Assembly: GCA_021604005.1 (NCBI GenBank)
Contig: BQIV01000006.1
Span: 62,001-126,000, forward strand
From: Nitrospirales bacterium
GTDB taxonomy: Bacteria; Nitrospirota; Nitrospiria; Nitrospirales; UBA8639
Direction of reading: 5' to 3'
DNA length: 64,000 nt
The translations under genes were made by a program, and so were the position numbers. Below the pieces are notes generated by a model that was not told where the DNA came from, searched no databases, and was given only the letters and a program-made list of their open reading frames with translations. Positions 1 through 14,185 of this stretch are shown one piece after another (the first letter of the stretch is position 1; every line of letters begins with the position of its first letter).

Positions 1-1376
1 ATTTCCTCAATAAATCCGCCGAACACCTCTCCCTCATAGATATTACGTCCGAAGAGAATGTCCGGAACGTCGAAGGCATAGGCAGCTTGCGTGACGATGG
101 CACGCTGATTATCATTGTCAGGGAATGATTGACTTGGATCCACATCCTGCAATACAAAGTATCCATTGAGCGTCAGTCGGTTTGGGCCGAAGAGGCGGGA
201 CAGGTAGACCAGACTTCCTTTGTAGGAGTTGATGTCATCCCAATTGAAGCCAGGATCCCAATTTTGGTGCGTGAATTGAAACTCCCCAGCAACTTTCCCT
301 TCTCCGACGAGGCGTGACAAACCCACAATACCGTCATATCGTTGTACGTCTTCTTTTCGAGCATGAAAGGTCAAGGCCGGCGTTGTCCGACGTGACCATT
401 GTGCCGCGGCTTTGACGAAGAGATCAAATCCATAGGGGAGCTGAAAGTCGTCAGCAATCGCTGCCCCAATTTCATGACCGACATCGTTGACAAAATGTGT
501 TGGATCGTTGAAATCAGGAATCTTTGAGTCATTAAACCGAAGGTAGCGATAGGTGAGGTCAAATGCGCGGAGTTGACCGACCTGAAAGCGTAGACGGTTG
601 GACGTGACCAGGCCCAATTTTTGGCGAGCAAGTGCCTTGAGTTCCCCCTCGGAAAGCATTCGACTCAAGACACTTTGCGCAAAAAGCGCCTCTCCAGTTA
701 AGTCCCGGCTATCCACCCATTGATAATCAAATGCTACTGTATCGTTACGGGCTTCAGTGATGGTACTGAAGAAAACAGAGGGATCTTGATTCCCGAACGA
801 CAAGCCGATTCCATTGGCTTGATTCAAGTAAAAGAGGGATTTTTTTAAATCGTCGCTGGTTTTTGCATCATTCCGTGCCCCCCACCGTTCTTGAGCTTTG
901 AGATTAGCAATTTTTTCTTGAGCTCGACGATAGCGCTCTTTGGCTGCCATCACGAGCCCTCCGTTTCGTACTCCGCGCATCCATTGCAGGTACTCTCCGT
1001 AGATGAGTTCAAGTGCCGGTTCTTCCGGGTGCAGTTGGATGGCTTGTTCATAATAGGACGCGGCACGTGAATCGCCGGTCCTTTTCATCAGTTCGGCAAT
1101 GATGCAGAGCCGATAGGGATATTCGGGGGAATCTTCGGCCGGTGGCGTCGTCAGACGGCGTTCAATCTCAGACTGGTAGTCTGATGGAGCAATTTTTCCT
1201 GCAAACCATGCACAGGCGTAGGGATCAATTCGTTCTGCGGCCGATGCCAGAGTTGGCGCAGAGAAGAACAAACAGACAATGAGCACCGCACGACATTTAA
1301 TCCAGGTGGAAAGCCGTCGTTGTCTGTCATTCAGGTTAGTATGATTGTCGACCTTGGTTGTGCAGTTTCCAGTCAA
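1..1376 (-). CDS. TPR/beta-strand-rich outer-membrane-type protein, probable polysaccharide export porin (3' end outside window)
   Basis: An open frame runs from a TTG codon at 1376-1374 to the left edge without a stop, so the C-terminus is missing. The start is supported by an AAGGAG site about 8 bases upstream. The product begins with a signal peptide (hydrophobic core VLIVCLFFSAPTLA, likely cleavage at ASA-A). About 100 residues follow with at least one TPR-like helix pair (YYEQAIQLHPEEPALELIYGEY), then about 300 residues of alternating, aromatic-rich strands typical of an outer-membrane barrel. The TPR-then-barrel plan is that of BcsC, PgaA and AlgK/AlgE-type secretins of synthase-dependent exopolysaccharides. 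It lies divergently next to a GT2 synthase locus, which fits an export role. Function is inferred from architecture and context; I do not recognise a named family. Confidence 0.6.
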   Translation of the reverse strand, partial: MTGNCTTKVDNHTNLNDRQRRLSTWIKCRAVLIVCLFFSAPTLASAAERIDPYACAWFAGKIAPSDYQSEIERRLTTPPAEDSPEYPYRLCIIAELMKRTGDSRAASYYEQAIQLHPEEPALELIYGEYLQWMRGVRNGGLVMAAKERYRRAQEKIANLKAQERWGARNDAKTSDDLKKSLFYLNQANGIGLSFGNQDPSVFFSTITEARNDTVAFDYQWVDSRDLTGEALFAQSVLSRMLSEGELKALARQKLGLVTSNRLRFQVGQLRAFDLTYRYLRFNDSKIPDFNDPTHFVNDVGHEIGAAIADDFQLPYGFDLFVKAAAQWSRRTTPALTFHARKEDVQRYDGIVGLSRLVGEGKVAGEFQFTHQNWDPGFNWDDINSYKGSLVYLSRLFGPNRLTLNGYFVLQDVDPSQSFPDNDNQRAIVTQAAYAFDVPDILFGRNIYEGEVFGGFIEE

Positions 1377-1904
1377 TGTGCTTCTCCTTCACGTAAATCG
1401 AACCTCATGCTGTTGATGTGATGAAATATAAAAAAGAATGAAAGAATGTGTATACCAATCACGATGAGGAGCGAACATCGTCAACACAATCCGGATTGGG
1501 TAAGCCCGCGCGCCTGTTCAGGGACCGGTCACTGTGGAGTCGCAGTGACGATTGTCGAAGGTGTTGCGTAAATCTTCACTATTTGACAGTAAAATAGCGC
1601 AACAAAGCAAAACAACCAAGTGTACCGTACGGAACGAAAATAATCAAACTTTTCTAGATTCTTCAGTGTTGATGAGTCACAACATGATCAGTATGTCTCT
1701 GTTGCCACTGAGCTCCCTTCGGTTCATGTGTCCCGCACAGAACCGCAATCGGAAATTTTCCGTAATACTCTGTTATCACACGGCTTTTTACGTAGTGACG
1801 CGGTTGTAATCATATTGTTTTGCCTCGTATACTAACTTGAGCGTTTTTCGTGAATTGCGCCTATTCGACATGAGAGGTGCAGACTGTGCAACAAGGGGTT
1901 TTTC
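1377..1904. other. Divergent intergenic region upstream of the exopolysaccharide genes
   Basis: This 528-base gap separates the minus-strand barrel gene from the plus-strand RHS gene and must hold promoters in both directions. It is AT-rich and has no convincing coding frame; the one plus-strand frame in it (1552-1809) has no ribosome-binding site and no family character. The clearest structure is the inverted repeat at 1528-1549, listed separately. Confidence 0.5.
1528..1549. repeat. Inverted repeat in divergent promoter region
   Basis: GTCACTG (1528-1534) and CAGTGAC (1543-1549) form a perfect 7-bp inverted repeat separated by 8 bases. It has no T-run, so it is not a classic terminator. 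The location between divergent genes would suit an operator, but no regulator is known. Confidence 0.35.
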
Positions 1905-2660
1905 GTGTGCGGACGAATCGCTTCGCAGTACGTAATATGGATCTTCCTCGTCATCGTGATGTGTGTCCATGGGTGTGCGCCACCTCCCAAGGCGTCAAGT
2001 CAAGACTTGGAGGGGGGGAAGAGTCGGCAATACGGTTGGTGGGTCGGACATTTCGGGAAAGAGGCTGCAGTGGATATCGGTTTTCGAGGGGAGGGGATTC
2101 AGATAGAAGTCGTACGAAGCTATCTCTCGCATGCGCGTATTGATAGCCCCATTGGTACGCGGTGGACGCACAATTATTTGATGCACATACGGAATGCTTC
2201 TGATAACCAATTGAAACTTTTTGATGCGGATGGTTCATCGACGTTATTCACTCTTGCAACGCAAGGGACCTTTCTCTCCAAAGAGGACCCCCCTCGCGTG
2301 CTCAAGCAGAATGGTGATGGCACGCACACGTTACATGACAGTACCGGAGTCATCTATGGGTTTAATCATAAAGGCCGTTTAATTCATATTCAGGGGCATC
2401 AATACGGACATACATTATCGGTCGCATATGGGGCTGATGGGTATTTGGAATCGATCAGTGATTCGAAAGGACATGTCATTACTTTTTACTATGATCCCGA
2501 GACGCATAGACTGCGGTCCATTCGAGATGGGCAAGGCCGTTCGGCGACCTATAAACACGACGGTATCGGCAATTTAATTTCAGTCATCAACGCAGAGGGT
2601 ATTACGAGTGCGTACAGTTATGATCGGCAAAGCCATCTTGTCGGCGTCACATTTCCGTAA
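1905..2660 (+). CDS. Short RHS/YD-repeat lipoprotein
   Basis: 251 residues from a GTG start preceded by AAGGGG. The N-terminus has a hydrophobic stretch ending in a possible lipobox (VHGC near residue 24), so it is probably lipid-anchored. The body matches the start of RHS proteins: a DUF6531-like segment (VVRSYLSHARIDSPIGTRW) followed by tandem YD-type repeats such as YGADGYLESISDSKG, YYDPETHRLRSIRDGQG and YKHDGIGNLISVINAEG. It ends after only a few repeats and lacks the core and toxin domains of full-length RHS proteins (usually over 1000 residues). It could be a genuine mini-RHS or the 5' part of a decayed gene; the stop is clean and no RHS sequence continues downstream. It is first in the plus-strand exopolysaccharide cluster. 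Confidence 0.7.
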   Translation: MCGRIASQYVIWIFLVIVMCVHGCAPPPKASSQDLEGGKSRQYGWWVGHFGKEAAVDIGFRGEGIQIEVVRSYLSHARIDSPIGTRWTHNYLMHIRNASDNQLKLFDADGSSTLFTLATQGTFLSKEDPPRVLKQNGDGTHTLHDSTGVIYGFNHKGRLIHIQGHQYGHTLSVAYGADGYLESISDSKGHVITFYYDPETHRLRSIRDGQGRSATYKHDGIGNLISVINAEGITSAYSYDRQSHLVGVTFP

Positions 2661-2777
2661 AGACGGCACAATTGCCAAGACAGAATATTCCTGTGTGCAT
2701 ACCTGTCGCGTCACCCTTGTGCCTGGCTCAGAGAGAGCAATGTTCGCCAGGATGGCGAGAAAGTCAGAAGGTCTACG

Positions 2778-5483
2778 ATGAGCATGTTTCACATCACCGT
2801 ATGGAATGTCATGATTATTGTCTTATTGTTGGCGAATCCTGTCTTGCCCCAGGAACGCCTTTCACCATCTCGTGCGAGTGAAGATCTGAAAAAGGACGGT
2901 TTCCCATGTGCGCTCAGTGGTGGTTGCACCGAAGACATCATCAGTGCGGATCCGACCTTTATTCAAATGCCGGCCGAAGGCCGTGCGGTTGTGACCTCCA
3001 GCCCTCTTTCACAAGGAGGCAATGGGTTAGTTGCCGAAATCCGTATCCCGGGGCATGGCGCACTTGTTCGAGCCAACGTTCCGATTTTTGGTCTGGCCTT
3101 TGGCGATAACTTTAAATCGTACCGTGTGGAATACGGCCGAGGCGACAAGCCGACAGAATGGACCGTGATAGAAACCTCAACAACTCCTCAAACGCACAAT
3201 GATTCTCCTGATAATCTGTATGTATCGGCAGACCTCTCCATCGAGGGGAATCTTGCGACGTGGGATACAGGGCTGAAGAATTATGTCTACCTTCCCACGC
3301 ATCCCAAAGATCACCCGGTTAATTTCAAAGGAACCTATACGGTTCGGCTCGTGGTGTCCTCAGTGGATGGCCACACGCTTGAAGATCGCGTGACGGTACA
3401 TGTGGCCAATGTCATTCCCAATGCTTGGGGCGGACGTGTCGTAAGCCCCGACGAACAGGTGACGTTAGATGTGCCGGAACAGGCTCTGACTGCACCGTTT
3501 AGGCTTATGCTCATACAAGCGACGGCAAATGCCCCCATGACAACGGGACATGGCAGGAAGCCCATTGGGAAGGTGTATGAAGTCAAAAACCCGGGTGAGC
3601 GGTTTACAAAAGAGGTCACCTTGGAGATGACGATTCCAACAGTTGTCCAGAATGATGAGTTTTCCCGATTAGCCATGTACGGGTACGACAACACCAGGCA
3701 CGAATGGGTTCAGCTTCCGACCTTTTTCCGAGCGAATGACGAAGGAAAACTGTTGACTCGTGTGAAGACGTTACATGCGTTCTATGCCGTGATGTCGACG
3801 ACTCGCAAGGGAGAAGGGGCGCATCCCCTTCCGGTTGAGACAGCAGATGACATGGCGAGAAACGTGAATACCGTACCGAACTTCGGCCACTATCTGGTCA
3901 AAGAGAATTTCGAACAGAATATGGGCCAATGGTCGAATCGGGATGGTGCAGTTGGCGCCACGGTTCGCGTCGACACGTCATCGACGTTTGATGGGACGCA
4001 AGCACTGAAAATTGTGAATGCGAATTCCGGAGGGAATTTTGCCGTTAATGTACGGACCACTCCATTTGATGTTCGGGAATTTCCTGTCATCGAGTTTGAT
4101 TATCAAATGGAGCCAGAAGTGAAGATCAACTTCTACGCCAAGGTTTCTGGGCGATGGTACATGGTCGGGCTGACCGATGATCCCATGGAACTCGAACGCA
4201 AACGCGTGAATATCGCACAGATCGGCAATGTACCGGGAATGTTGGCGGACAATCAATGGCATACGGCTCACATCAACCTCTATGACATGTTGCGAACAAA
4301 AACCGGAAACGTCATTGTCGACGCATTGGTTATGGCTGATTGGGATGTAACGGGATACATGAAACTTCAGTTTGGCTCCAATCGCGCAGGAGCGACCTAC
4401 TACATCGATAATTTTCAGATTCGCCGAGAACTCGAACCCGGATGGCACACGAATGATGAGACCATTGTCGTCGACCGGTTTAATCAAAAAAAGGAACGAA
4501 ACCATCTGGGAGGACCATTTGCGGGATTTCAAAATTCCTCCGAAGACGACGGGGGAACGATTCACATAGGGTTTGATAGTGATGACGCAGCCGATCACGG
4601 ACATTCTTTGGCGCTTACCTATGATGTGTCTCGACCACACGCATTCAGTGGCTATATGACCACATTCCCTAATCTAGATCTTCGAGGTTTTCATGCTCTG
4701 AGTTTTTCGGTGAAGAGTCTCGACACGAATCAAGATGTATTTGTTGGACTTCGCGATTCCCTCGGACATGAACACAAGGTACTCTTGAGTACATATCTCT
4801 CCCGGTCCCTTAAGACAGACTGGGATAACGTGATGATTCCATTAACGATATTTGGCCCAGAGCTGCATTTAAAGAAAATCGAACATCTGAGTTTTTCATT
4901 TGCTCATGATCGGCAATCGACGGGCACAATACTTCTGGATGACATACAATTTCACAAACATGTTCAGGCGTTTCATGTTGATAACTTCGAGCAATGGCAT
5001 GGGAAAAACCTGCTTGGCGGTCACCATCGAACGTTTGCGGAAGGGGTTGCCGCGGTGAATGGTGCGTATACCCGGGGGTCGCCAAACGGGTTGTATCGAC
5101 TGTCGTATGGAGGCAATATTGGAACAATTAATGCGTATGCCAGCGATCTCTTAACCTACGCTGGCTGGGAAACTCATCTCGGCGGAATCGACTGTTCGCG
5201 TTGCTCTCAAGTCACGTTCCGCATACGCGGAGGTCAGGGCGGTGAAAAGCCGAATATATATCTCGATGATGGCAACTTCCGGTGGAGTGTCGATCTTGAA
5301 GACTATCAAGAGGTGACGACCGAATGGCAATGGGTCACAATTCCCTTACAGGCTTTCGCTGAGTATGGCGTGGACTTAACACATCTTGAAGAATTCCAAG
5401 TCGTATTTGAGTGGGAACAAATGTCCAGTACGATCTATTTAGACGACGTGTGGTTCGGGGAAGATACGGGGGCGAAACCGTAA
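2778..5483 (+). CDS. Large secreted multidomain protein with carbohydrate-binding-like beta-sandwiches
   Basis: 901 residues with a signal peptide (about 1-25, ending LPQ). Visible segments are an Ig-like region (about 95-210), a ZU5-like domain (about 213-345, starting WGGRVVSPDEQVTLDVPEQAL), and three related beta-sandwich modules (about 370-560, 570-730 and 735-895). Each sandwich begins with a VDNFEQ/VDRFNQ/ENFEQN-type strand and ends with a YIDNFQI or YLDDVWF-type strand. That pattern is typical of CBM11/CIA30-like galactose-binding folds, which often bind beta-glucans. No catalytic domain is evident. It sits between the RHS lipoprotein and a GH17 enzyme, so a role in binding or retaining the polysaccharide at the cell surface is likely but inferred. 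Confidence 0.7.
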   Translation: MSMFHITVWNVMIIVLLLANPVLPQERLSPSRASEDLKKDGFPCALSGGCTEDIISADPTFIQMPAEGRAVVTSSPLSQGGNGLVAEIRIPGHGALVRANVPIFGLAFGDNFKSYRVEYGRGDKPTEWTVIETSTTPQTHNDSPDNLYVSADLSIEGNLATWDTGLKNYVYLPTHPKDHPVNFKGTYTVRLVVSSVDGHTLEDRVTVHVANVIPNAWGGRVVSPDEQVTLDVPEQALTAPFRLMLIQATANAPMTTGHGRKPIGKVYEVKNPGERFTKEVTLEMTIPTVVQNDEFSRLAMYGYDNTRHEWVQLPTFFRANDEGKLLTRVKTLHAFYAVMSTTRKGEGAHPLPVETADDMARNVNTVPNFGHYLVKENFEQNMGQWSNRDGAVGATVRVDTSSTFDGTQALKIVNANSGGNFAVNVRTTPFDVREFPVIEFDYQMEPEVKINFYAKVSGRWYMVGLTDDPMELERKRVNIAQIGNVPGMLADNQWHTAHINLYDMLRTKTGNVIVDALVMADWDVTGYMKLQFGSNRAGATYYIDNFQIRRELEPGWHTNDETIVVDRFNQKKERNHLGGPFAGFQNSSEDDGGTIHIGFDSDDAADHGHSLALTYDVSRPHAFSGYMTTFPNLDLRGFHALSFSVKSLDTNQDVFVGLRDSLGHEHKVLLSTYLSRSLKTDWDNVMIPLTIFGPELHLKKIEHLSFSFAHDRQSTGTILLDDIQFHKHVQAFHVDNFEQWHGKNLLGGHHRTFAEGVAAVNGAYTRGSPNGLYRLSYGGNIGTINAYASDLLTYAGWETHLGGIDCSRCSQVTFRIRGGQGGEKPNIYLDDGNFRWSVDLEDYQEVTTEWQWVTIPLQAFAEYGVDLTHLEEFQVVFEWEQMSSTIYLDDVWFGEDTGAKP

Positions 5484-5721
5484 TACGTATCTGCTGATTT
5501 GATGATATTTTGCGTTGCGTACGCCTTATTCCTTCAAGTTTAAGGCTGATGAACAAGAAATGGGTTCATGGACACGATGACTGAAGAGTGTGTGCAGATA
5601 TTTAGGCGGTTCGTAATACGTTATGAAGAGACGTTGCCTGCCTGAAATCCTTCTGATGCCTACCCTTGTTTAGTATCGTGCCTATTCAGAATGCCCGGAG
5701 CATATATTCTGTACTCGTACG

Positions 5722-6657
5722 GTGAAATTTTCCATGGGTAACTCACACACTATTCAGAGCAACGTCACGTCCCGTTGGTGGGCGATCGGCCTGGGCATAC
5801 TCCTTTGCCTGTTTTCATCGAGTAGGGAAGTGGTCGCTTCTTCTAAGGGCGAGGATATTCTGCACGCGTTTCGTCCTCCAGCCATTGCCTATCAGCCTCG
5901 AGGCTTCTTCCCAGGAGCGGAATTTTCACCCTCGGCATCCCGTCAAATCAGGCAAGAGATCCAACAACTGCATGCGCTAGGCTTTCAAAGCCTTGTCACC
6001 TACGGTGCTCGTGGCGCGATGGGTACGATTCCACAGATCGCTCGAGCAGAAGGTTTTGCGGGAATGGTGATTATGGGAATTTGGGATATTCACTCGAAAG
6101 AGGAGTGGGAGAATGCGGTTGCACAACGAGACTATGTCGACGGCTATTGTTTAGGGAATGAAGGTCTCCTGTTCTTACGGTATACCGTTAAAGAATTAGA
6201 AAAGAAAATGGCTGAATTACGCCGAGATACCGGGAAACCGGTCACCACAGGGGAACCCATCGATAGCTATCTTGAGGGACCGTATCGGGAATGGCTGTGG
6301 AAACATTCCGATTGGCTGTTCCCGAATACGCATCCTTTTTGGGGCGGGAAAACACAGTTTCAAGAAGCGGTTCATTGGGTGCTTGCACGTGTTGATTATT
6401 TGGAAGGCACAACAGGAAGACACGTCATCCTCAAAGAAACAGGTCTGCCGACTCTTGCGTCGAATCCCGAAAGCGAAGAAATGCAACGGGCATTTTTTAC
6501 GGAATTACAATCGACGGGCGTGCCATTTGTATATTTTGAAGCGTTTGATCAGCCCTGGAAATATGAATTAGAAAATCAACCAGAAGCCGAAGGGCATTGG
6601 GGTTTGTACGATGCTCAGGGGCGGCCGAAACTAGCGATTGAGTCCGTTACTCGTTGA
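5722..6657 (+). CDS. GH17-family beta-1,3-glucan hydrolase/transglycosylase (copy 1)
   Basis: 311 residues. The start is taken as GTG 5722; ATG 5734 is an alternative and neither has a clear Shine-Dalgarno. A signal peptide or membrane anchor lies at about 20-40. The rest is a TIM-barrel with the two GH17/clan GH-A catalytic sites: acid/base Glu147 in LGNEGL and nucleophile Glu239 in LKETGLP, plus conserved TTGEP and NTHPFW strand ends. Family GH17 acts on beta-1,3-glucans, and bacterial members, including the domain fused to the GT2 in Pseudomonas NdvB, are often transglycosylases. The next gene overlaps its end and a GT2 synthase follows, so trimming or branching of the nascent glucan in the periplasm is the likely role. 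It is paralogous to 13139-14185. Confidence 0.82.
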   Translation: MKFSMGNSHTIQSNVTSRWWAIGLGILLCLFSSSREVVASSKGEDILHAFRPPAIAYQPRGFFPGAEFSPSASRQIRQEIQQLHALGFQSLVTYGARGAMGTIPQIARAEGFAGMVIMGIWDIHSKEEWENAVAQRDYVDGYCLGNEGLLFLRYTVKELEKKMAELRRDTGKPVTTGEPIDSYLEGPYREWLWKHSDWLFPNTHPFWGGKTQFQEAVHWVLARVDYLEGTTGRHVILKETGLPTLASNPESEEMQRAFFTELQSTGVPFVYFEAFDQPWKYELENQPEAEGHWGLYDAQGRPKLAIESVTR

Positions 6658-6665
6658 GAATACCG

Positions 6666-7358
6666 ATGAAGCTCAAATGGTTCATAATGTGGGGAGGGAT
6701 CGGGCTCTTACTGCTCTCCTCGGTTTCTCCCTCAAGAGCCACAATGGGAGGTATTTCCAATATTGGACCGATCTTCACACAGGGCGATTCGTCCACAGCT
6801 ACGCGGGAATTTGTCGAGTTGGAACAGTCCGGAAGACTGTGGGTTGGACGCCCATCTCAGCATAGTCTGATCGCGATGATTGCGCTGTATGCTCCTGGTC
6901 TTGATAACGGTCATGTCATTTTACGTGAACTCACAACAGCGGAAGGACACCTAACCATACTTTTGACCGCACCCGATGCCATCAGGTCTCACGTGCAACG
7001 CGTGACGCTCTACACGAAGGAATTGCCCGAAACCATCACGTTACACGAACTTGTTGATGGCCAGTGGCAGAAGCGCCTCCCTCAATCCCTCATGATCGAT
7101 TCGTTGAACAAGGGGAAAACCGTATCTCAAGAACTCAAAGCCTTTTCGGTCAAGACCTTGGGCTTTTATTGGGTACTTGAATCAACGGCTCAGACAGCGA
7201 CCATGTTGTCGGCATCCGTGAACACGTCCGCCAGAACGCTCATTGGTGGTGACCTCGCGTGGGGCTTTATGCCATCACTGCTTGGCATTCTGTTGCTGAT
7301 GGTGTGTGGGGCCGTCTCACGGTATGTCCATAAAACAGCGAAATTGCGGGAGCTGTAG
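6666..7358 (+). CDS. Unknown envelope protein with N- and C-terminal membrane segments
   Basis: 230 residues from ATG 6666; a TTG at 6654 would overlap the upstream stop. The N-terminus is a signal sequence (WFIMWGGIGLLLLSS). The middle (about 30-190) is predicted periplasmic and beta-rich. A single transmembrane helix lies near the C-terminus (FMPSLLGILLLMVCG) and is followed by a basic tail, so the bulk is periplasmic and anchored at its C-terminus. No family is recognised. It is sandwiched between the GH17 gene and the GT2 synthase with almost no spacing, which suggests it is a co-polymerase or scaffold partner of the synthase (inference). Confidence 0.65.
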   Translation: MKLKWFIMWGGIGLLLLSSVSPSRATMGGISNIGPIFTQGDSSTATREFVELEQSGRLWVGRPSQHSLIAMIALYAPGLDNGHVILRELTTAEGHLTILLTAPDAIRSHVQRVTLYTKELPETITLHELVDGQWQKRLPQSLMIDSLNKGKTVSQELKAFSVKTLGFYWVLESTAQTATMLSASVNTSARTLIGGDLAWGFMPSLLGILLLMVCGAVSRYVHKTAKLREL

Positions 7359-7359
7359 A

Positions 7360-8883
7360 ATGGTCTGGTCGGCAACGTTTGTCTTTACAGTTCAAGTTAT
7401 CTGCCTGGTGGTGTTTGTGACTTTTGCCTGTTTTAATTATTTGTACGCATTCGCCAGCTTACGCAGACCCGCTATTCCTCGCGTGTCGCATGGTGACCAC
7501 CAAGTGGCCATCGTGGTGGTAGCCTACAACGAACAGTTTGTTCTGGAACGAACGTTAAAAGGATGCGAGCAGTTAACGTATCCGAATCGCTTCACCGTCC
7601 TGGCGGACGATTCGACAGATCCCAACATTATCGCTCAAATACGTCAATTTGCGATTGCCCGTGGCTGTACGCGCCTGGACAATCACCCCTTCGTGCAAGA
7701 GCGAACGACTTCTTCCGGTGACGTGCAACACGAACCGATTGAAATCTGGGAGTCGAAGGATTTTGTCCTGTTCCATCGACCGTCCAAGAATGGGTTCAAA
7801 GCCGGGAGCCTTCGCAAACTCCAGGATTACCTTGCGCACCGTGGCACAAAGTACATGTACTTATTGGATGCCGATTGGAAACCACAACCCGATGCCGTGG
7901 AAAGAACGCTTGAAGTCTTGAAAGCTCAAGACGATATTGCATTCGTTCAAACCAAGCGAGCGGCATTTCCGTATGGTATGAATTTGTTTCAAAAATATGT
8001 GGCGCTGTCTGAGGAGAGCTGTTATTACGTAGATTTTGAAGGCCGACAAGTCTTGGGTCACCCGGCGTTATTTTCCGGATGTTGCACGATGTTTCGCCTA
8101 CAAGCCGTGAACCAAGTTGGTGGATTCACTCCCGGACATTTGACGGAGGATATCGATCTGACCAACCGATTGTGGCTAGCGGGCTGGAAAGGCGTATATG
8201 CGGGCCATGTGGTGAATTATGGAGAAGTCCCTTTTTCCCTGAATCATTTTCGACGACAACAAGAACGTTGGTGTACCGGCACGGCCAGGGTTTTTCGAGA
8301 ATATTTCTGGGATATCATCCGATCCAGTCAGCTTTCAGGTATCGAAAAAATGTCCGCACTCCGTCAAAATGCGTATTATACGACTCCGATGTTGACTGGA
8401 GCGGCGATTCTTCTGGGCATGCTCACGGTGTGGTGGCTTGCTGCAGGGTGGAATTCCTATGAAGTCGAGTATTACCTTTACTTGCTGAACATGGTGAAGT
8501 TTCCATTTACGGTCGCAATCGGTATGTGCCTGCTCTCGAACCTGATTCAACCGTTTATCATGCTTGTCTTTAAAAAACGTTCCTATCGGGATCTTTTTCA
8601 TTTTCCCATGATGCTGTGGTATGGCTGGAGCGTGATGCTTACCTACATCTTGGCAAATATGAAAGGCTTCTTACAGATACAATTAGACTGGTTTCGAACT
8701 CCAAAATTTCTTCGTCATCGAGTGGGCCCTCTTACCACGAGCCCACTATCCGTGCGGGCGGTCAATCTCTGCGTGTGCATGACGTTTATGGGGTTCTATT
8801 TTGTGGAAGGATTTCTGTTTGGATGGTTCGATCTCTGGGGCCTGTTGTTGGTGCCGGCATTCCTAATTGCTTCGCTCAAGTAA
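7360..8883 (+). CDS. Processive family-2 glycosyltransferase (cellulose/curdlan synthase-like)
   Basis: 507 residues from ATG 7360, one base after the previous stop, with GGGAG upstream. An N-terminal transmembrane helix (about 5-30) is followed by a cytoplasmic GT-A domain with every processive GT2 signature: ADD (82-84), DAD (170-172), TED (262-264) and QQERW (300-304). Four or so transmembrane helices follow (about 343-365, 375-403, 412-435, 468-505) and form the translocation channel. It would polymerise a beta-glycan from a nucleotide sugar and push it across the inner membrane. The neighbouring GH17 enzymes point to a beta-1,3-glucan (curdlan or NdvB-like product) rather than cellulose. 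There is no C-terminal PilZ domain and no bcsB- or alg44-like gene in view. Confidence 0.88.
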   Translation: MVWSATFVFTVQVICLVVFVTFACFNYLYAFASLRRPAIPRVSHGDHQVAIVVVAYNEQFVLERTLKGCEQLTYPNRFTVLADDSTDPNIIAQIRQFAIARGCTRLDNHPFVQERTTSSGDVQHEPIEIWESKDFVLFHRPSKNGFKAGSLRKLQDYLAHRGTKYMYLLDADWKPQPDAVERTLEVLKAQDDIAFVQTKRAAFPYGMNLFQKYVALSEESCYYVDFEGRQVLGHPALFSGCCTMFRLQAVNQVGGFTPGHLTEDIDLTNRLWLAGWKGVYAGHVVNYGEVPFSLNHFRRQQERWCTGTARVFREYFWDIIRSSQLSGIEKMSALRQNAYYTTPMLTGAAILLGMLTVWWLAAGWNSYEVEYYLYLLNMVKFPFTVAIGMCLLSNLIQPFIMLVFKKRSYRDLFHFPMMLWYGWSVMLTYILANMKGFLQIQLDWFRTPKFLRHRVGPLTTSPLSVRAVNLCVCMTFMGFYFVEGFLFGWFDLWGLLLVPAFLIASLK

Positions 8884-8900
8884 CAGGCACGGTGTATAGT

Positions 8901-9377
8901 ATGACAAGACGTTTTTGGTATTGTCGGATTCTTGTTGCAGCGGTAATATGGTTGGGGGCGGTTCCCACTAGCGTGTTCGCGCAAGCCGATATCAAAGTCA
9001 AAGTCATCGCCCCATCGGCAGATGGGCAGGAAGTTGGTCGGAGGGCCAATATCAAAGGCACGGCCGTGATACCACAGGATAATTTTCTTTGGATTTTAGT
9101 TCATCGAATTCGAGGGTTTGAAGATCGGTGGTGGCCGCAGGGTGAAGTCACGGTGAATGCCAAGAGTTCCACATGGATAAAAAATGTACGGTTTGGGGAA
9201 AAACGGGATATCGGCTATCAATTCGAAATTGCCGTGATTACGGTCGGCAAGACCGAACATGAACTCTTGAACAGATTTCTATTTTTCGTCAAACAAACCG
9301 GTCGCTCCGACCCGATCATGATGCCGTCAACGACCTCGCCACCGAAGTATCGAATAGTCAAAAAAGTTCGGCATTGA
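8901..9377 (+). CDS. Small secreted beta-sandwich-like protein of the exopolysaccharide cluster
   Basis: 158 residues from ATG 8901, 17 bases after the synthase stop; a longer frame from 8616 would overlap the GT2 extensively and is unlikely. A signal peptide ends near SVFAQA (about residue 25). The mature part, IKVKVIAPSADGQEVGRRANIKGTA and onward, has the opening strands of a bacterial Ig-like fold. No catalytic motif is seen. As last gene of the plus-strand run it is probably a periplasmic accessory of polysaccharide assembly, but no function can be assigned from sequence. Confidence 0.65.
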   Translation: MTRRFWYCRILVAAVIWLGAVPTSVFAQADIKVKVIAPSADGQEVGRRANIKGTAVIPQDNFLWILVHRIRGFEDRWWPQGEVTVNAKSSTWIKNVRFGEKRDIGYQFEIAVITVGKTEHELLNRFLFFVKQTGRSDPIMMPSTTSPPKYRIVKKVRH

Positions 9378-9528
9378 GGTCACTTGATACCTGCCTATCT
9401 TTTTCTCCAGATCGCTCCATGCTACTGTTTCCGACATAGCCGTTTCTCGTAGTGGCTTTCAATTGAACCACAAGAACTGCCTGGGAAAGCGGATTGAAGG
9501 ATTCTCCTAAAAGTTGCCTTCGTGGCTT

Positions 9529-10743
9529 CTAGGGATCTTGCAGGGCGTGAGGGGAATCCGGTTCCCCCTCCAGATACGTAATTGCCTCATTCATAAAGCC
9601 AAAGCCAAACTCTGGGATCAGATTCTCTACATTCTCGATTATAATGAGGTCGTAGTGCGAAAGGAGTTGCTCCCAACTGATATTGGCTTTGGATTCGAGG
9701 ATTGTCCCTGTATACGAACGCAAAGTTTGAAAATAGTCATACACATTCACCTCACGGCACATGCCATAGTGCTTCAATGCATAGGCGAGCTGATACGAAA
9801 AACTGTCTCCGACGATCAACACTCGCGGTTGTTGATCCGGTGAGACATGTGGCCGCTTCACCAGTGGGTACATCTCATCGGTGATGAGTTCATGGGTGGT
9901 ATAGATGTTCATTAATTTGGCCAGATCTGTATCTTCTCGTTCCGGGGATCGTTTCTCAAAACCTGTAATCTCAGGTAGGGATAAGGGCTTGTGGAGTTTT
10001 GGGTTTACCCGTTCGCGAAGATCTTGTAAGACTAAGAAGGCCGCATAGTCATTCCAATGCATCCCACTTTTGGGAAAGAAGGGATGTTCCTGTACATCCT
10101 TGAGTCGAGTCAGGATTGCAGGGCCATCGCTGAATACGATGTTCTGTTTTTCTAACAACGGGACGATTCGTTGATAATCGGAAAAGACCGATGCCTCCAC
10201 ATTCATTCGCTTCTGTTGATGAGTCGAATCCATATACTCCGGGTAAATGTGGGGTTTGCTTGGAGCAAGCACCAGTGCGACAGGCAGATTCCGCTTTTCC
10301 ATCATGAGCTGTTGTAGGGTGGCGAGTTGTTGGACCGCTTCCTCCAATTCGGCATTGGTACGCCAACCGGGCCATTGATAGGCTCTGACCGACAACCCCT
10401 CAAAGAGCCAATCATCCTTCCCCAATAACACCCTGGTTCCCTCCTTCCACTGTACGCTCTGACGAAACACCGTATAGGTGAGTTGATTGGCTAGTCGTAC
10501 CATCACCGAACGAAATCCGATATGGGTGTTCAGCCAAGCTTCAATTTGTGTTTGATATTCCCCAGACAACCAGTTTTGCCAGTTGAGGGCAACCTGAGGT
10601 GCGGAGGAAACTGCGACGCCCTGCAGTGGCTGGACCGCGACGTACGGGCGGTACGTTTGAAGCAAAACTGCCATCGTTACCAGCAAAAGTGAGGCAATCC
10701 AAATACTCCGGAAAAGACGTGCTTTGTGTATGTCGTGTGTCAT
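9529..10743 (-). CDS. AlgJ/AlgX-like SGNH-type polysaccharide O-acetyltransferase
   Basis: 404 residues. One N-terminal transmembrane helix (about 11-31) is followed by a periplasmic SGNH-like domain. Recognisable are GKDDWLF (108-114), the block II strand VALVLAPSKPHIYPEY, the HW motif (His229-Trp230) and the GDSF nucleophile elbow (VLIVGDSFSYQ). AlgJ and AlgX use an Asp-x-His pair and Ser; here the residue two before His229 is Gly, so the usual Asp is shifted or missing. Its ATG overlaps the stop of the MBOAT gene by one base (TAATG), so the two are translationally coupled. Together they should acetylate a periplasmic polysaccharide, most simply the product of the adjacent GT2 locus. Confidence 0.8.
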   Translation of the reverse strand: MTHDIHKARLFRSIWIASLLLVTMAVLLQTYRPYVAVQPLQGVAVSSAPQVALNWQNWLSGEYQTQIEAWLNTHIGFRSVMVRLANQLTYTVFRQSVQWKEGTRVLLGKDDWLFEGLSVRAYQWPGWRTNAELEEAVQQLATLQQLMMEKRNLPVALVLAPSKPHIYPEYMDSTHQQKRMNVEASVFSDYQRIVPLLEKQNIVFSDGPAILTRLKDVQEHPFFPKSGMHWNDYAAFLVLQDLRERVNPKLHKPLSLPEITGFEKRSPEREDTDLAKLMNIYTTHELITDEMYPLVKRPHVSPDQQPRVLIVGDSFSYQLAYALKHYGMCREVNVYDYFQTLRSYTGTILESKANISWEQLLSHYDLIIIENVENLIPEFGFGFMNEAITYLEGEPDSPHALQDP

Positions 10744-12209
10744 TAAAACTGGAAATAAATAAATGGATGATACCCAAGAGTAGCAATATCAATGACCGCT
10801 AGGCCTAACACAACGGTCGCAGCCACTCCTTTATAATAGGGAGCCCATGGGCTGTCCCTTAGCCATATTCGCCCTTTCAGCAGCCATCGATTGTCGTCTG
10901 GCACAAGCGTGATGATGGTCGCTAATCCCATAATGAACATGGTTCGAGAATCTATAATTTCCGATAAAAAATAGCCAAGGTCACGTTCCGCATTGACCGG
11001 AAACTCATAGACCTGTCCCCAACTACTAAAATCAAACAGACATGCGAAATAGAGCAGCGAGAGGTCCAGCGTTTCCATACGAAAGAACACCCACCCAAGC
11101 GTCACAAAGAAAAATGTGACGACTTGCAAAACCCAATTGGGAATCATCGTCCATTTCCATGGTGTGAAAATTTTGTCGAGGGTCAAAAAGCATCCGTGAT
11201 AGATTCCCCAGACAATAAAATTCCAACTTGCCCCATGCCACAACCCTGCCAATAGAAACACGATCCATATATTACAATACTGCCGAATCGGTGTTACCCG
11301 GTTTCCCCCCAATGGAATATAGACATATTCCCGCATCCAGTTTGAGAGTGAGATATGCCAGCGATGCCAAAATTCCGTAAAATTCCGGCTGGTATAGGGG
11401 CGGTTAAAATTCTCGAGGAAATCAAAACCCATCATCTTGCCCAAGCCGATGGCCATATCCGAATAGCCGGAGAAATCAAAGTAAATCTGCAGGCTATAAG
11501 CGAAGATGCCGATCCAGGCATAATGCATCGGCAAGTGATGCAACCAGTATCCGAATATCGTGTCTGCGAGTTGTCCCATCGCATCGGCAATCAGGACCTT
11601 TTTCCCTAGCCCGATGCTAAATCGATAGAGACCCTCCGAAAATTTTCGGCTCGAATGAACGCGTTCCACCAACTGATCCGCCACGTCATGATAACGAATA
11701 ATTGGGCCTGCAATAAGCTGGGGGAACAAGGCGACATATAAGGCGTACGAGACAAAATTACGTGCTGGCCGTACATGCCCCCGATACACGTCGATCATAT
11801 AACTTAATTTTTGAAACGTAAAAAACGAAATACCAATCGGTAGTGCGATATGTTCCCAGGATAGCGGGTCATGTCCCAACCATCCCTGTGTCACGTGTAG
11901 TTGCTCCATAAAGAAATTCGAATACTTTGCATACAGCAATATACCGATATTGATGGCAACTGACACGGCAACGACACATTTCCGTTTGAAGTGTTCGTGA
12001 TCTCCATGCCGGACGAGATATAAACTGAGAAGGTAATCGATGAATGAAGAACTCAATAACACTAGGGCGAACACCGGCTCTCCCCATGAGTAAAAGAGGT
12101 AACTTCCCAGCAGTGCGACCACATTTTTTGACGATCGGGGTGTCAGGTAGTAAACCGTCAGAAACACGGGCAAGAATACCAATAAGAAAATGGTAGAGCT
12201 AAAGATCAT
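10743..12209 (-). CDS. AlgI/DltB-type MBOAT acyltransferase
   Basis: 488 residues and about 11 membrane helices. The MBOAT signature is clear: the opening MIFSSTIFLLVFLPVF, FDFSGYSDMAIGLGKMMGF, FNRPYTSRNFTEFWHRWHI and the active-site helix LLAGLWHGASWN with its invariant His, followed by a second His in IYHG. AlgI-family proteins move acetyl groups from a cytoplasmic donor across the inner membrane for transfer by an AlgJ/AlgX partner, which is the next gene. This pair is convergent with the GT2 genes but encoded within the same block, so modification of that polymer is the natural inference. Confidence 0.9.
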   Translation of the reverse strand: MIFSSTIFLLVFLPVFLTVYYLTPRSSKNVVALLGSYLFYSWGEPVFALVLLSSSFIDYLLSLYLVRHGDHEHFKRKCVVAVSVAINIGILLYAKYSNFFMEQLHVTQGWLGHDPLSWEHIALPIGISFFTFQKLSYMIDVYRGHVRPARNFVSYALYVALFPQLIAGPIIRYHDVADQLVERVHSSRKFSEGLYRFSIGLGKKVLIADAMGQLADTIFGYWLHHLPMHYAWIGIFAYSLQIYFDFSGYSDMAIGLGKMMGFDFLENFNRPYTSRNFTEFWHRWHISLSNWMREYVYIPLGGNRVTPIRQYCNIWIVFLLAGLWHGASWNFIVWGIYHGCFLTLDKIFTPWKWTMIPNWVLQVVTFFFVTLGWVFFRMETLDLSLLYFACLFDFSSWGQVYEFPVNAERDLGYFLSEIIDSRTMFIMGLATIITLVPDDNRWLLKGRIWLRDSPWAPYYKGVAATVVLGLAVIDIATLGYHPFIYFQF

Positions 12210-13138
12210 AAAGGTGATGTTCGGTTAGATATGTGACCGACCTTAAAATTTGCTTTTTGGAGGACATGAGATCATTGGCAACCGTTTCCGGAATGAGCGG
12301 TCAACGAGGGTGAGTCTTTTTGTGATACGTGCACCTTGTTTTCGAAGGATAATACAGCGGGGAGCAGAGGCTGTGAAGGTATTGCGTCTCGAACGTTTGT
12401 CTGCCCTCTCTCACGAATACGGTCTCAAGCCATTGCTTAAGAGTAACGGTGTGATCTCAACAACCCTACTAGTCATATGAACATCTCTCTTCCCCCACAA
12501 TCAATTGGCGAATGAAATGATCGCAGACATCGTCAATATTGGACTGCATCGTTCCCACCATCTCTACTTACGGCGATGTGCCATCAATACACAGCGCTGA
12601 GCACTCCCACTTTTCCTCAGGTTGAAACCCGACGGCTCAGACTGAGACGAAAGGGTAAGGCACCAGTCGAAGGATACCAGAAAAAATAGAAGTGGTGGCA
12701 AGATGCAATGCGAATTATGCAAGCAATGGATGTGACAGAAGAATGCGATTTGCAGTTCAGGGATGTTTCTCGAGAAAGATCTCCGTGCTGCGCTTTCGAT
12801 GTATTGCTTCCATCATGACCAAAGCCGCCAGCTCCATCCGTTCATGATGAGAACACTTCTCCAACGTTAGAACTTGTTCCTTCCCATTGTGTCAATGTCT
12901 TGCCGGTTCCTTTCTGCCTGTTCAAGCTTCTGACGACTCGATGTTTCTGTTGCGTAGTCAATATCGTATGCGGATATGCCGTGGATATCAGATTGAGACG
13001 CAACATGGAGGTCTAGACCCTAATCTAAAAAGGCACGTTGTGTTGTAGGTTGGTACGGGGCCAGTTCATTTTTTCTCGAAATATTCCGAAATAACTGACG
13101 AATATTTTCATTCGTTTTCTACGGAAAGGCAATGAGAG
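12210..13138. other. 929-base non-coding gap between the acetylation pair and the second GH17 gene
   Basis: This is the longest gap in the window and holds promoters for the minus-strand MBOAT gene and the plus-strand GH17 gene. The plus-strand frame 12250-12480 has no family character and I do not call it. A short minus-strand frame (12864-12757, TTG start, 35 residues including RMELAALVMMEAI) looks helical and might be a small gene or a remnant. The last 60 bases before the GH17 start are AT-rich with short inverted repeats around CGAAATATTCCG. The patchy look suggests decayed sequence, but no parent gene or IS is recognised. Confidence 0.4.
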
Positions 13139-14185
13139 ATGAACTGGAGAACACGTTCAGTTGTATGGATTATCCTTGTGGTGCCTAGCATCTCACTAGG
13201 TGCCTTCGACCTGGCGAGTGCGCGTCACACGTCAGCTACGGAAAATTCCAAGTTTTTTTCATACTTGACTGACCAGGAGAATCCGCCATTACTCATCGAT
13301 TATTCTCCGTCTGACTTTGATCCCCGTCATGGCCGTCATTTCCATCTCCCATCTCCAGAGTCGATTGAGAAAGACTTACTAGCCTTGCGGCAAGTGTTTG
13401 ATGGCCTGATCGTGTACAGTTATCATCCACAGGTCACTCCGGTCATACTCGAGAAAGCAAAAGAGTTTCAATTTCGTGCCGTCGTATTGGGTATTTGGAG
13501 CGCACGGTCAACGAGAGAAATTTCCGGGGTAGTTGAACTGGTTCGTCAATATGCGGACAGTATGACGTTGGCGATATGTTTGGGCAATGAAGGCCTGACG
13601 TTTCATCGATATACGATTCATGATTTGATACAAGCCGAGCGTGAGATTCGAGCGTCGCTCGACAGGACCGTTGAAATTCCCATCACGACAAGTGAACCCA
13701 TGAGTAAGTATCGTGATCCTGCTCTGTCTGCGTTTGGGGATTTTTTAGCGCCCAACATTCATCCGGTGTGGGAAAAGCCGGCATTGCCGCCAAAAGATGC
13801 TGTATTCTGGACAAGATCTCAAGCAATTTCTTTGATGAAAAAAGCTCAGAAGCCCGTGCTTGTCAAAGAAACCGGATATCCTCATTCAGGAGAGCGGCAT
13901 TTTACGCCGCAAGCGCAGAAAAAGTTTTGGGATATGTATTTGAGGGAAGAGCCGTTGCTTCATTCACCGACAAATCCTCATGTGTGGGTGTCGTTTGCCA
14001 CGTCGTTCGAGGCATTTTCATTACCGTGGAAAGCTGAACAAAGCGGTGAGCCTGTCGAAGCTGGTTGGGGAATGATGAGTAAAGATCGTGTGCCCTTCCC
14101 CGCATTCTATTCATGGAGTCGCGTGCAGTCGTCCACTCGGGTTCAAAGGGAACGTTCGTATCAGCGAGTTGATGTGAGGCAATAA
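13139..14185 (+). CDS. GH17-family beta-1,3-glucan hydrolase/transglycosylase (copy 2)
   Basis: 348 residues with a signal peptide (about 5-28). The barrel keeps the GH17 residues: acid/base Glu151 in LGNEGL and nucleophile Glu244 in VKETGYP, plus TTSEP and APNIHPVW, which match the corresponding positions of copy 1. Outside these sites the two paralogues differ strongly and this one is longer at the C-terminus, with a basic tail. It would be exported and act on a beta-1,3-linked glucan. It stands alone, separated from the main cluster by the acetylation pair and a 929-base gap, and ends directly in a strong terminator. Two diverged copies may divide trimming and branching or surface release between them (inference). 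Confidence 0.82.
   Translation: MNWRTRSVVWIILVVPSISLGAFDLASARHTSATENSKFFSYLTDQENPPLLIDYSPSDFDPRHGRHFHLPSPESIEKDLLALRQVFDGLIVYSYHPQVTPVILEKAKEFQFRAVVLGIWSARSTREISGVVELVRQYADSMTLAICLGNEGLTFHRYTIHDLIQAEREIRASLDRTVEIPITTSEPMSKYRDPALSAFGDFLAPNIHPVWEKPALPPKDAVFWTRSQAISLMKKAQKPVLVKETGYPHSGERHFTPQAQKKFWDMYLREEPLLHSPTNPHVWVSFATSFEAFSLPWKAEQSGEPVEAGWGMMSKDRVPFPAFYSWSRVQSSTRVQRERSYQRVDVRQ

Follow-up and report, generated by a model that had tools for sequence, protein, structure and literature searches.

Which genes at a polysaccharide locus of a Nitrospirales bacterium form a unit, and what might that unit make? The window analyzed here is a 64,000-nucleotide stretch (C6:62001-126000) of this organism's 4.7-Mb genome (G000). 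Its first 14 kb hold a processive GT2 synthase, two GH17-type enzymes, a candidate exporter and a pair of putative acetylation genes, and a sequence-only reading had joined them all (positions 1-14185) into one complete O-acetylated beta-1,3-glucan secretion system. Judged by gene linkage, conservation, catalytic motifs and domain content, the conserved object is not this whole 14-kb gene set; it is a trio of adjacent genes.

5722-6657, plus strand: GH17a, core gene, a secreted, predicted GH17-type beta-1,3-glucan hydrolase/transglycosylase (motifs, profile match, similarity to NdvB)
6666-7358, plus strand: TM234, core gene, with a signal peptide, a predicted periplasmic beta-sandwich and a C-terminal transmembrane anchor (AlphaFold model)
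7360-8883, plus strand: GT2 synthase, core gene (open reading frame 7306-8883, conserved start 7360; motifs, Pfam, own clade)

We compared the window genome with four congeners and 11 more distant genomes, giving 16 trio genomes in total. A scan of a species-genome collection based on the GT2 alignment yielded 14 loci, and the 11 that lie outside the genus are 56-61% identical; the scan undercounts because only two short peptide patterns were used. GH17a, TM234 and GT2 are adjacent, in one order and on one strand, in 16/16 genomes (the 14 scan loci, the window and G001), and in the window they overlap or abut (6657/6654 or 6666; 7358/7360). Carriers outside the genus are found in Nitrospirota (OFTM76 and Candidatus Manganitrophus), in Gammaproteobacteria and among 'Deltaproteobacteria' metagenome-assembled genomes (MAGs), the last placed in Myxococcota by the tree tool. 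The four congeners, whose named records include Nitrospirales bacterium NPIRA01, NPIRA04 and OFTM51, keep the order RHS251-CBM901-GH17a-TM234-GT2 as far as their contigs extend, with the trio proteins about 50-83% identical. GT2 is found in three of 346 Nitrospirota genomes, all three of the window's genus, and in six of the 24 genomes of one gammaproteobacterial order. In the tree Manganitrophus falls among Gammaproteobacteria with a support of 90/73, below the star threshold, a grouping that suggests transfer between phyla. A search of viral contigs with GT2 gave no match.

As the sequence-only reading had claimed, GT2 carries the complete motif set of a processive synthase: ADD (residue 100), DAD (187), TED (280) and QQERW (318). 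It matches Pfam Glyco_trans_2_3 (E 9e-21) and has one N-terminal and several C-terminal transmembrane segments. PilZ gave no Pfam match within the protein, and a separate cyclic di-GMP receptor elsewhere was not sought. The GT2s of the trio form their own clade (support 100/100) apart from the tested BcsA, NdvB, PgaC and OpgH examples. Orthology to NdvB or BcsA was rejected from this tree and from identity (22% to NdvB), NdvB being a single long-branch row whose own placement is unsure.

Both GH17-type enzymes, GH17a and the second one at 13139-14185 (GH17b), bear the catalytic-glutamate motifs GNE and KETG, in agreement with the earlier claim of two secreted enzymes with both catalytic residues; in GH17a the first reads GNEG. 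Among 13 GH17a orthologues the proton-donor E143 in GNE and the nucleophile E235 in E(T/S)GxP are invariant. The Pfam GH17 cut-off (PF00332) is not reached by GH17a (12.7 versus 28.2 bits), and GH17b has no match to it. The placement of GH17a therefore relies on the match of its family profile to the solved GH17 enzymes 6fcg (E 4e-11) and 4wtp (E 2e-10) and on its similarity to NdvB. The catalytic glutamates of GH17a align to those of a solved beta-1,3-glucanosyltransferase, and the GH17 domain of Pseudomonas aeruginosa NdvB is matched by both GH17a and GH17b, at 31% identity.

TM234, which adjoins GT2 in all 16 trio genomes, is modeled by AlphaFold as a beta domain, mostly with a predicted local distance difference test (pLDDT) score of 75-94 at residues 50-170, followed by a helix at the C-terminus.

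GH17 together with GT2 is already known as a fusion. PMC10237404 describes the pseudomonad 'Orphan' cyclic-beta-glucan synthase NdvB as a GH17-GT2 protein proposed to make cyclic beta-1,3-glucan, the GT2 chain reaching a periplasmic GH17 for cutting and cyclization. The sequence-only statement that no described system with exactly this gene set is known needs that qualification. NdvB resembles the trio in coupling a GH17 to a GT2 without PilZ across the inner membrane, and its GH17 part is 31% identical (PMC10237404). However, NdvB is one fused polypeptide whereas all 16 trio genomes have separate genes, including TM234; its GT2 is only 22% identical and falls outside the trio clade; and the portion of PMC10237404 covered mentions no RHS partner or carbohydrate-binding module (CBM) partner for it.

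With NdvB as precedent, extrusion by GT2 and TM234, remodeling by GH17a and binding by CBM domains would follow. GT2 would polymerize a glucan, probably from UDP-glucose, and thread the chain across the inner membrane; TM234 would act as its periplasmic partner, in the position that BcsB has relative to BcsA; and secreted GH17a would cut and/or transglycosylate the emerging beta-1,3-linked chain, GH17 probably standing in for the periplasmic hydrolase or transglycosylase. We give about an even chance to the resulting reading, a split-gene analogue of NdvB in which GT2 makes a beta-1,3-containing glucan of the surface or periplasm, GH17 remodels it and an RHS-CBM protein binds it. It is from these comparisons that we infer the sugar, its linkage, the location of the product, the direction of export and the roles of TM234 and the RHS-CBM protein.

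The glucan-binding part of this proposal concerns two genes just upstream of the trio.

1905-2660, plus strand: RHS251, a putative lipoprotein with DUF6531 (E 9e-10) and three YD repeats (RHS_repeat, E 4e-12)
2778-5483, plus strand: CBM901, secreted, with a PKD/ZU5-like region and CBM30/CBM11-like domains (Pfam CBM30, E 2e-12)

The multi-CBM protein had been recognized in the sequence-only reading, which had overlooked the RHS gene as well as the conserved protein at 6666-7358 (TM234). CBM901 lies beside the trio in 5/5 genomes of the genus and in seven of the 11 trio genomes outside it. Within Nitrospirota it occurs in 3/346 genomes, exactly the three with GT2, and within Gammaproteobacteria in 2/369, both trio carriers; thus every one of the five occurrences of this roughly 900-residue region in 715 sampled genomes is in a trio genome. 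RHS251 has full-length or near-full-length matches in three congeners and a contig-cut match in the fourth. Its lipobox reads VTGC or ISGC in the congeners and the less canonical VHGC in the window genome.

Outside the genus the two genes usually correspond to one. The alignment places RHS251 at the N-terminal RHS portion of fused RHS-CBM proteins, and CBM901 is 44-50% identical to the C-terminal half (about 850-890 amino acids in intact cases) of giant proteins encoded next to GT2. At loci L022, L033 and L023 the CBM part is the C-terminus of a single protein of 1691-2280 amino acids with an N-terminal RHS/YD-repeat shell, the L023 copy being cut by a contig end. L029 and L028 have the same arrangement interrupted by frame changes, and L030 has thrombospondin-3 repeats instead of the RHS shell. 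The interrupted genes belong to Manganitrophus GAC4 and M_MetaBat.51 (L029:2577-8411 and L028:3852-7460), where either decay or assembly error may be responsible. DUF6531, a long YD-repeat shell and the RHS core motif are all present in L022, L033 and L029; the window retains DUF6531 and three repeats. From this alignment pattern, the RHS-CBM protein of the window's genus is split and reduced to RHS251 and CBM901, each with its own signal.

The fused proteins share DUF6531, YD repeats and the core motif with Rhs, WapA and TcC-type shells, and their core motif precedes the CBM part, at the position that toxins have in Rhs effectors. They differ in that about 850 residues of glucan-binding domains close the region behind the core and in that the gene adjoins a polysaccharide synthase; only three YD repeats are left in the window. 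At L023:11709-16784 (minus strand) a variable region between RHS core and CBM part differs from those of L022 and L033 (hydrophobic segments there), as in polymorphic Rhs tips. Our literature search, which covered few subscription papers, found no system combining RHS, CBM and polysaccharide synthesis.

In the split-gene NdvB analogue, a glucan-binding protein would then keep the product at the cell surface: a single RHS-CBM protein in most other lineages, and in the window's genus the lipoprotein RHS251 and the secreted CBM901 as a separate pair. Alternatively, the trio could make a periplasmic oligosaccharide or an osmoregulated cyclic beta-1,3-glucan with no export at all, the TPR/beta-rich and CBM proteins serving other ends. 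Among plasmid records GH17a matches the GH17 domain of NdvB best (31%), NdvB likewise has no PilZ (PMC10237404), and no exporter is conserved beyond the genus, all of which this explanation accommodates. We nevertheless consider it somewhat unlikely, for the trio encodes its GT2 and GH17 as two proteins and the GT2s of trio and NdvB are not closely related (22%); moreover, the signal peptide or lipobox of the CBM/RHS partner suggests that this partner encounters the polymer at the outer membrane or outside it.

The same binding domains might instead serve foraging, with GH17a and the CBM proteins binding and cutting external laminarin-type glucans and the GT2 product unrelated. Glucan degraders often carry GH17 and CBM30/CBM11 members, and the top solved match of GH17a, 6fcg, bears the name of a GH17 glycoside hydrolase. 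The tight and invariable linkage of GH17a, TM234 and GT2 across phyla makes this very improbable, and in the flanking genes scanned we noticed neither a transporter nor a glucosidase set.

What, then, of the remaining genes that the sequence-only reading had included?

1-1376, minus strand (3' part lost at the window edge; full gene 617 amino acids, L001:15523-17376): TPR/beta-rich secreted protein, candidate exporter, genus-limited (conservation, partial model)
8901-9377, plus strand: small secreted protein encoded after GT2 (with its true start at 8901; the open reading frame from 8616 overlaps GT2)
9529-10743, minus strand: ALGX-domain SGNH-like protein, accessory (Pfam ALGX, E 3e-15)
10743-12209, minus strand: AlgI/DltB-type MBOAT, accessory (Pfam MBOAT, E 4e-31; DltB-like, E 6e-47, below cut-off)
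13139-14185, plus strand: GH17b, second GH17-type enzyme, secreted, genus-limited (GNE and KETG motifs, conservation in congeners)

From 1905 the plus strand reads RHS251, CBM901, GH17a, TM234, GT2 and the small secreted protein; the AlgX-like and MBOAT genes follow on the minus strand, then GH17b on the plus strand and groEL. Leftmost, on the minus strand, are the window-cut TPR/beta-rich gene, a 247-residue HExxH protein and a 189-residue secreted protein.

Every gene of the dedicated O-acetylated, exported beta-1,3-glucan system proposed earlier exists, side by side, and a single contig of the sister species G004 joins CBM901, GH17a, TM234, GT2 and AlgX/MBOAT in the same order. The co-occurrence in relatives holds for GT2 with GH17 (16/16) but not for acetylation (2/16), nor for the exporter and GH17b, which were not found outside the genus. 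We thus regard the all-gene model as improbable, and a single unit of all listed genes is not supported.

An AlgI-type MBOAT beside an AlgJ-like partner had been correctly identified, and the active-site histidine of the MBOAT is present (LWHG, residue 323). AlgX and AlgJ are expected to carry DxHW; the AlgX-like protein has GDSF, but SGMHWN replaces DxHW in both species, so the DxH aspartate is missing. The pair resembles AlgI/AlgJ/AlgX in joining an AlgI/DltB-type MBOAT to an ALGX-domain protein, and differs in having glycine for that aspartate, in occurring in two species only and in lying convergent to the synthase, outside the GT2 operon, an orientation that the sequence-only reading had missed. 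At the locus it is present in two of the five genomes of the genus (the window genome and G004) and in no other trio genome; the only close AlgX relative elsewhere is that of G004, and one further weak match (26%) lies elsewhere in the genome of G335. The GT2-GH17b interval (window 8884-13138; L015, L016 and L019) is a swap site, holding AlgX and MBOAT in the window genome and G004, a methyltransferase, a 144-146-residue secreted protein and an 816-residue membrane protein in G001 and G002, and nothing in G003. Because this content varies and G001-G003, which lack the pair at the locus, have no AlgX relative elsewhere, acetylation is accessory and not part of the conserved system; in the window species and one sister species the pair may acetylate the glucan.

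Within the swap site, the small secreted protein has a G004 counterpart 75% identical over 8901-9377 and weak similarity (E 0.009) to the 144-residue secreted protein of G002. Inspection by eye suggests a resemblance between the small secreted proteins (8901-9377; L032:13262-13696) and the N-terminal part of the methyltransferase (L015:1799-3157), all encoded after GT2; a single beta-domain family may have been reused next to the synthase. The gap between MBOAT and GH17b (12210-13138, about 930 bases) has no open reading frame of 100 amino acids.

GH17b, which may trim the chain in this genus, occurs in 5/5 of its genomes at 67-74% identity (in G004 on another contig). No orthologue was found outside the genus, where the other trio genomes return their own GH17a and one weak second match (G328). 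Outside the window, at G000:C28:5306-6253 (minus strand), lies a third gene resembling GH17b, with 37% identity to it and one TAA in the reading frame of the matched stretch.

The TPR/beta-rich protein, a candidate for taking the chain across the outer membrane, is likewise present in 5/5 genomes of the genus (in G004 on another contig) and in 3/296 Nitrospirota genomes, all of this genus; none of the 11 trio genomes outside it has an orthologue. The earlier description of a TPR plus beta-rich exported protein stands in part: in a model built from three sequences, part of the N-terminal TPR-like helical region reaches pLDDT of about 70-82, but positions 1-1376 are only part of the 617-residue gene. 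For the beta-rich part, barrel modeling with the same three-sequence input failed (mean pLDDT 35). An alternating-hydrophobicity strand test was uninformative because the protein (z 0.8) was not separated from shuffles and CBM901 scored a higher z. There was no sequence match in PDB or Pfam, nor to PgaA or BcsC. The neighboring 247-residue HExxH (HEQVH) protein (L001:14746-15489, minus strand), without a Pfam match, adjoins the TPR gene in G000-G003, is duplicated in G002 and is lipoprotein-like in G003, where a 387-residue protein of SGNH/GDSL-like appearance (L018:10729-11892) is inserted between the two.

Comparison with other synthase-dependent systems places the trio further. Like BcsA-BcsB-BcsZ-BcsC, it combines a GT2, an anchored periplasmic partner and a glycoside hydrolase, with a TPR/beta-rich protein in this genus only; unlike Bcs, the window proteins have neither PilZ nor a BCSC_C Pfam match, the hydrolase is a GH17, and no profile match links TM234 to BcsB or the TPR protein to BcsC. 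The rhizobial BgsAB mixed-linkage glucan system (PMC5567048) shares a GT2 without PilZ and a membrane-attached partner gene; its GT2, however, is 26% identical, the partner is HlyD-like in a Bradyrhizobium relative and no GH17 is adjacent.

Several points weigh against the split-gene NdvB analogue. The GT2 motifs cannot separate glucose from N-acetylglucosamine, nor 1,3 from 1,4 linkage, and the beta-glucan identity of the product is one that we infer for sugar and linkage alike. Four gammaproteobacterial trio genomes (draft MAGs) have no CBM901, which is therefore not essential. A fold search with TM234 gave no confident match, with beta-sandwich domains only middling (Z up to 7.5), and a BcsB homologue was rejected for lack of a profile match to BcsB. 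The trio loci show no outer-membrane exporter common to all of them.

As far as our comparisons and the literature covered show, three features are new: a three-gene form that includes TM234, a GT2 clade of its own and the tie to RHS-CBM proteins. Tentatively, and with the balance leaning against it, we suggest an undescribed class of synthase module (GH17, anchored beta-sandwich and own GT2 clade) that has spread between phyla, together with an RHS shell that, no longer a toxin carrier, serves at the surface as a glucan-binding component for a single polysaccharide. If this is true, GH17 would transglycosylate a nascent beta-1,3-glucan in a periplasmic step that is separable and has a membrane subunit of its own, and the NdvB reaction could be dissected one gene at a time. 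RHS/YD-repeat shells would have a non-toxin role tied to a polysaccharide. To our knowledge, little is known of matrix chemistry in Nitrospirota, and the locus would point to a matrix glucan in this phylum.

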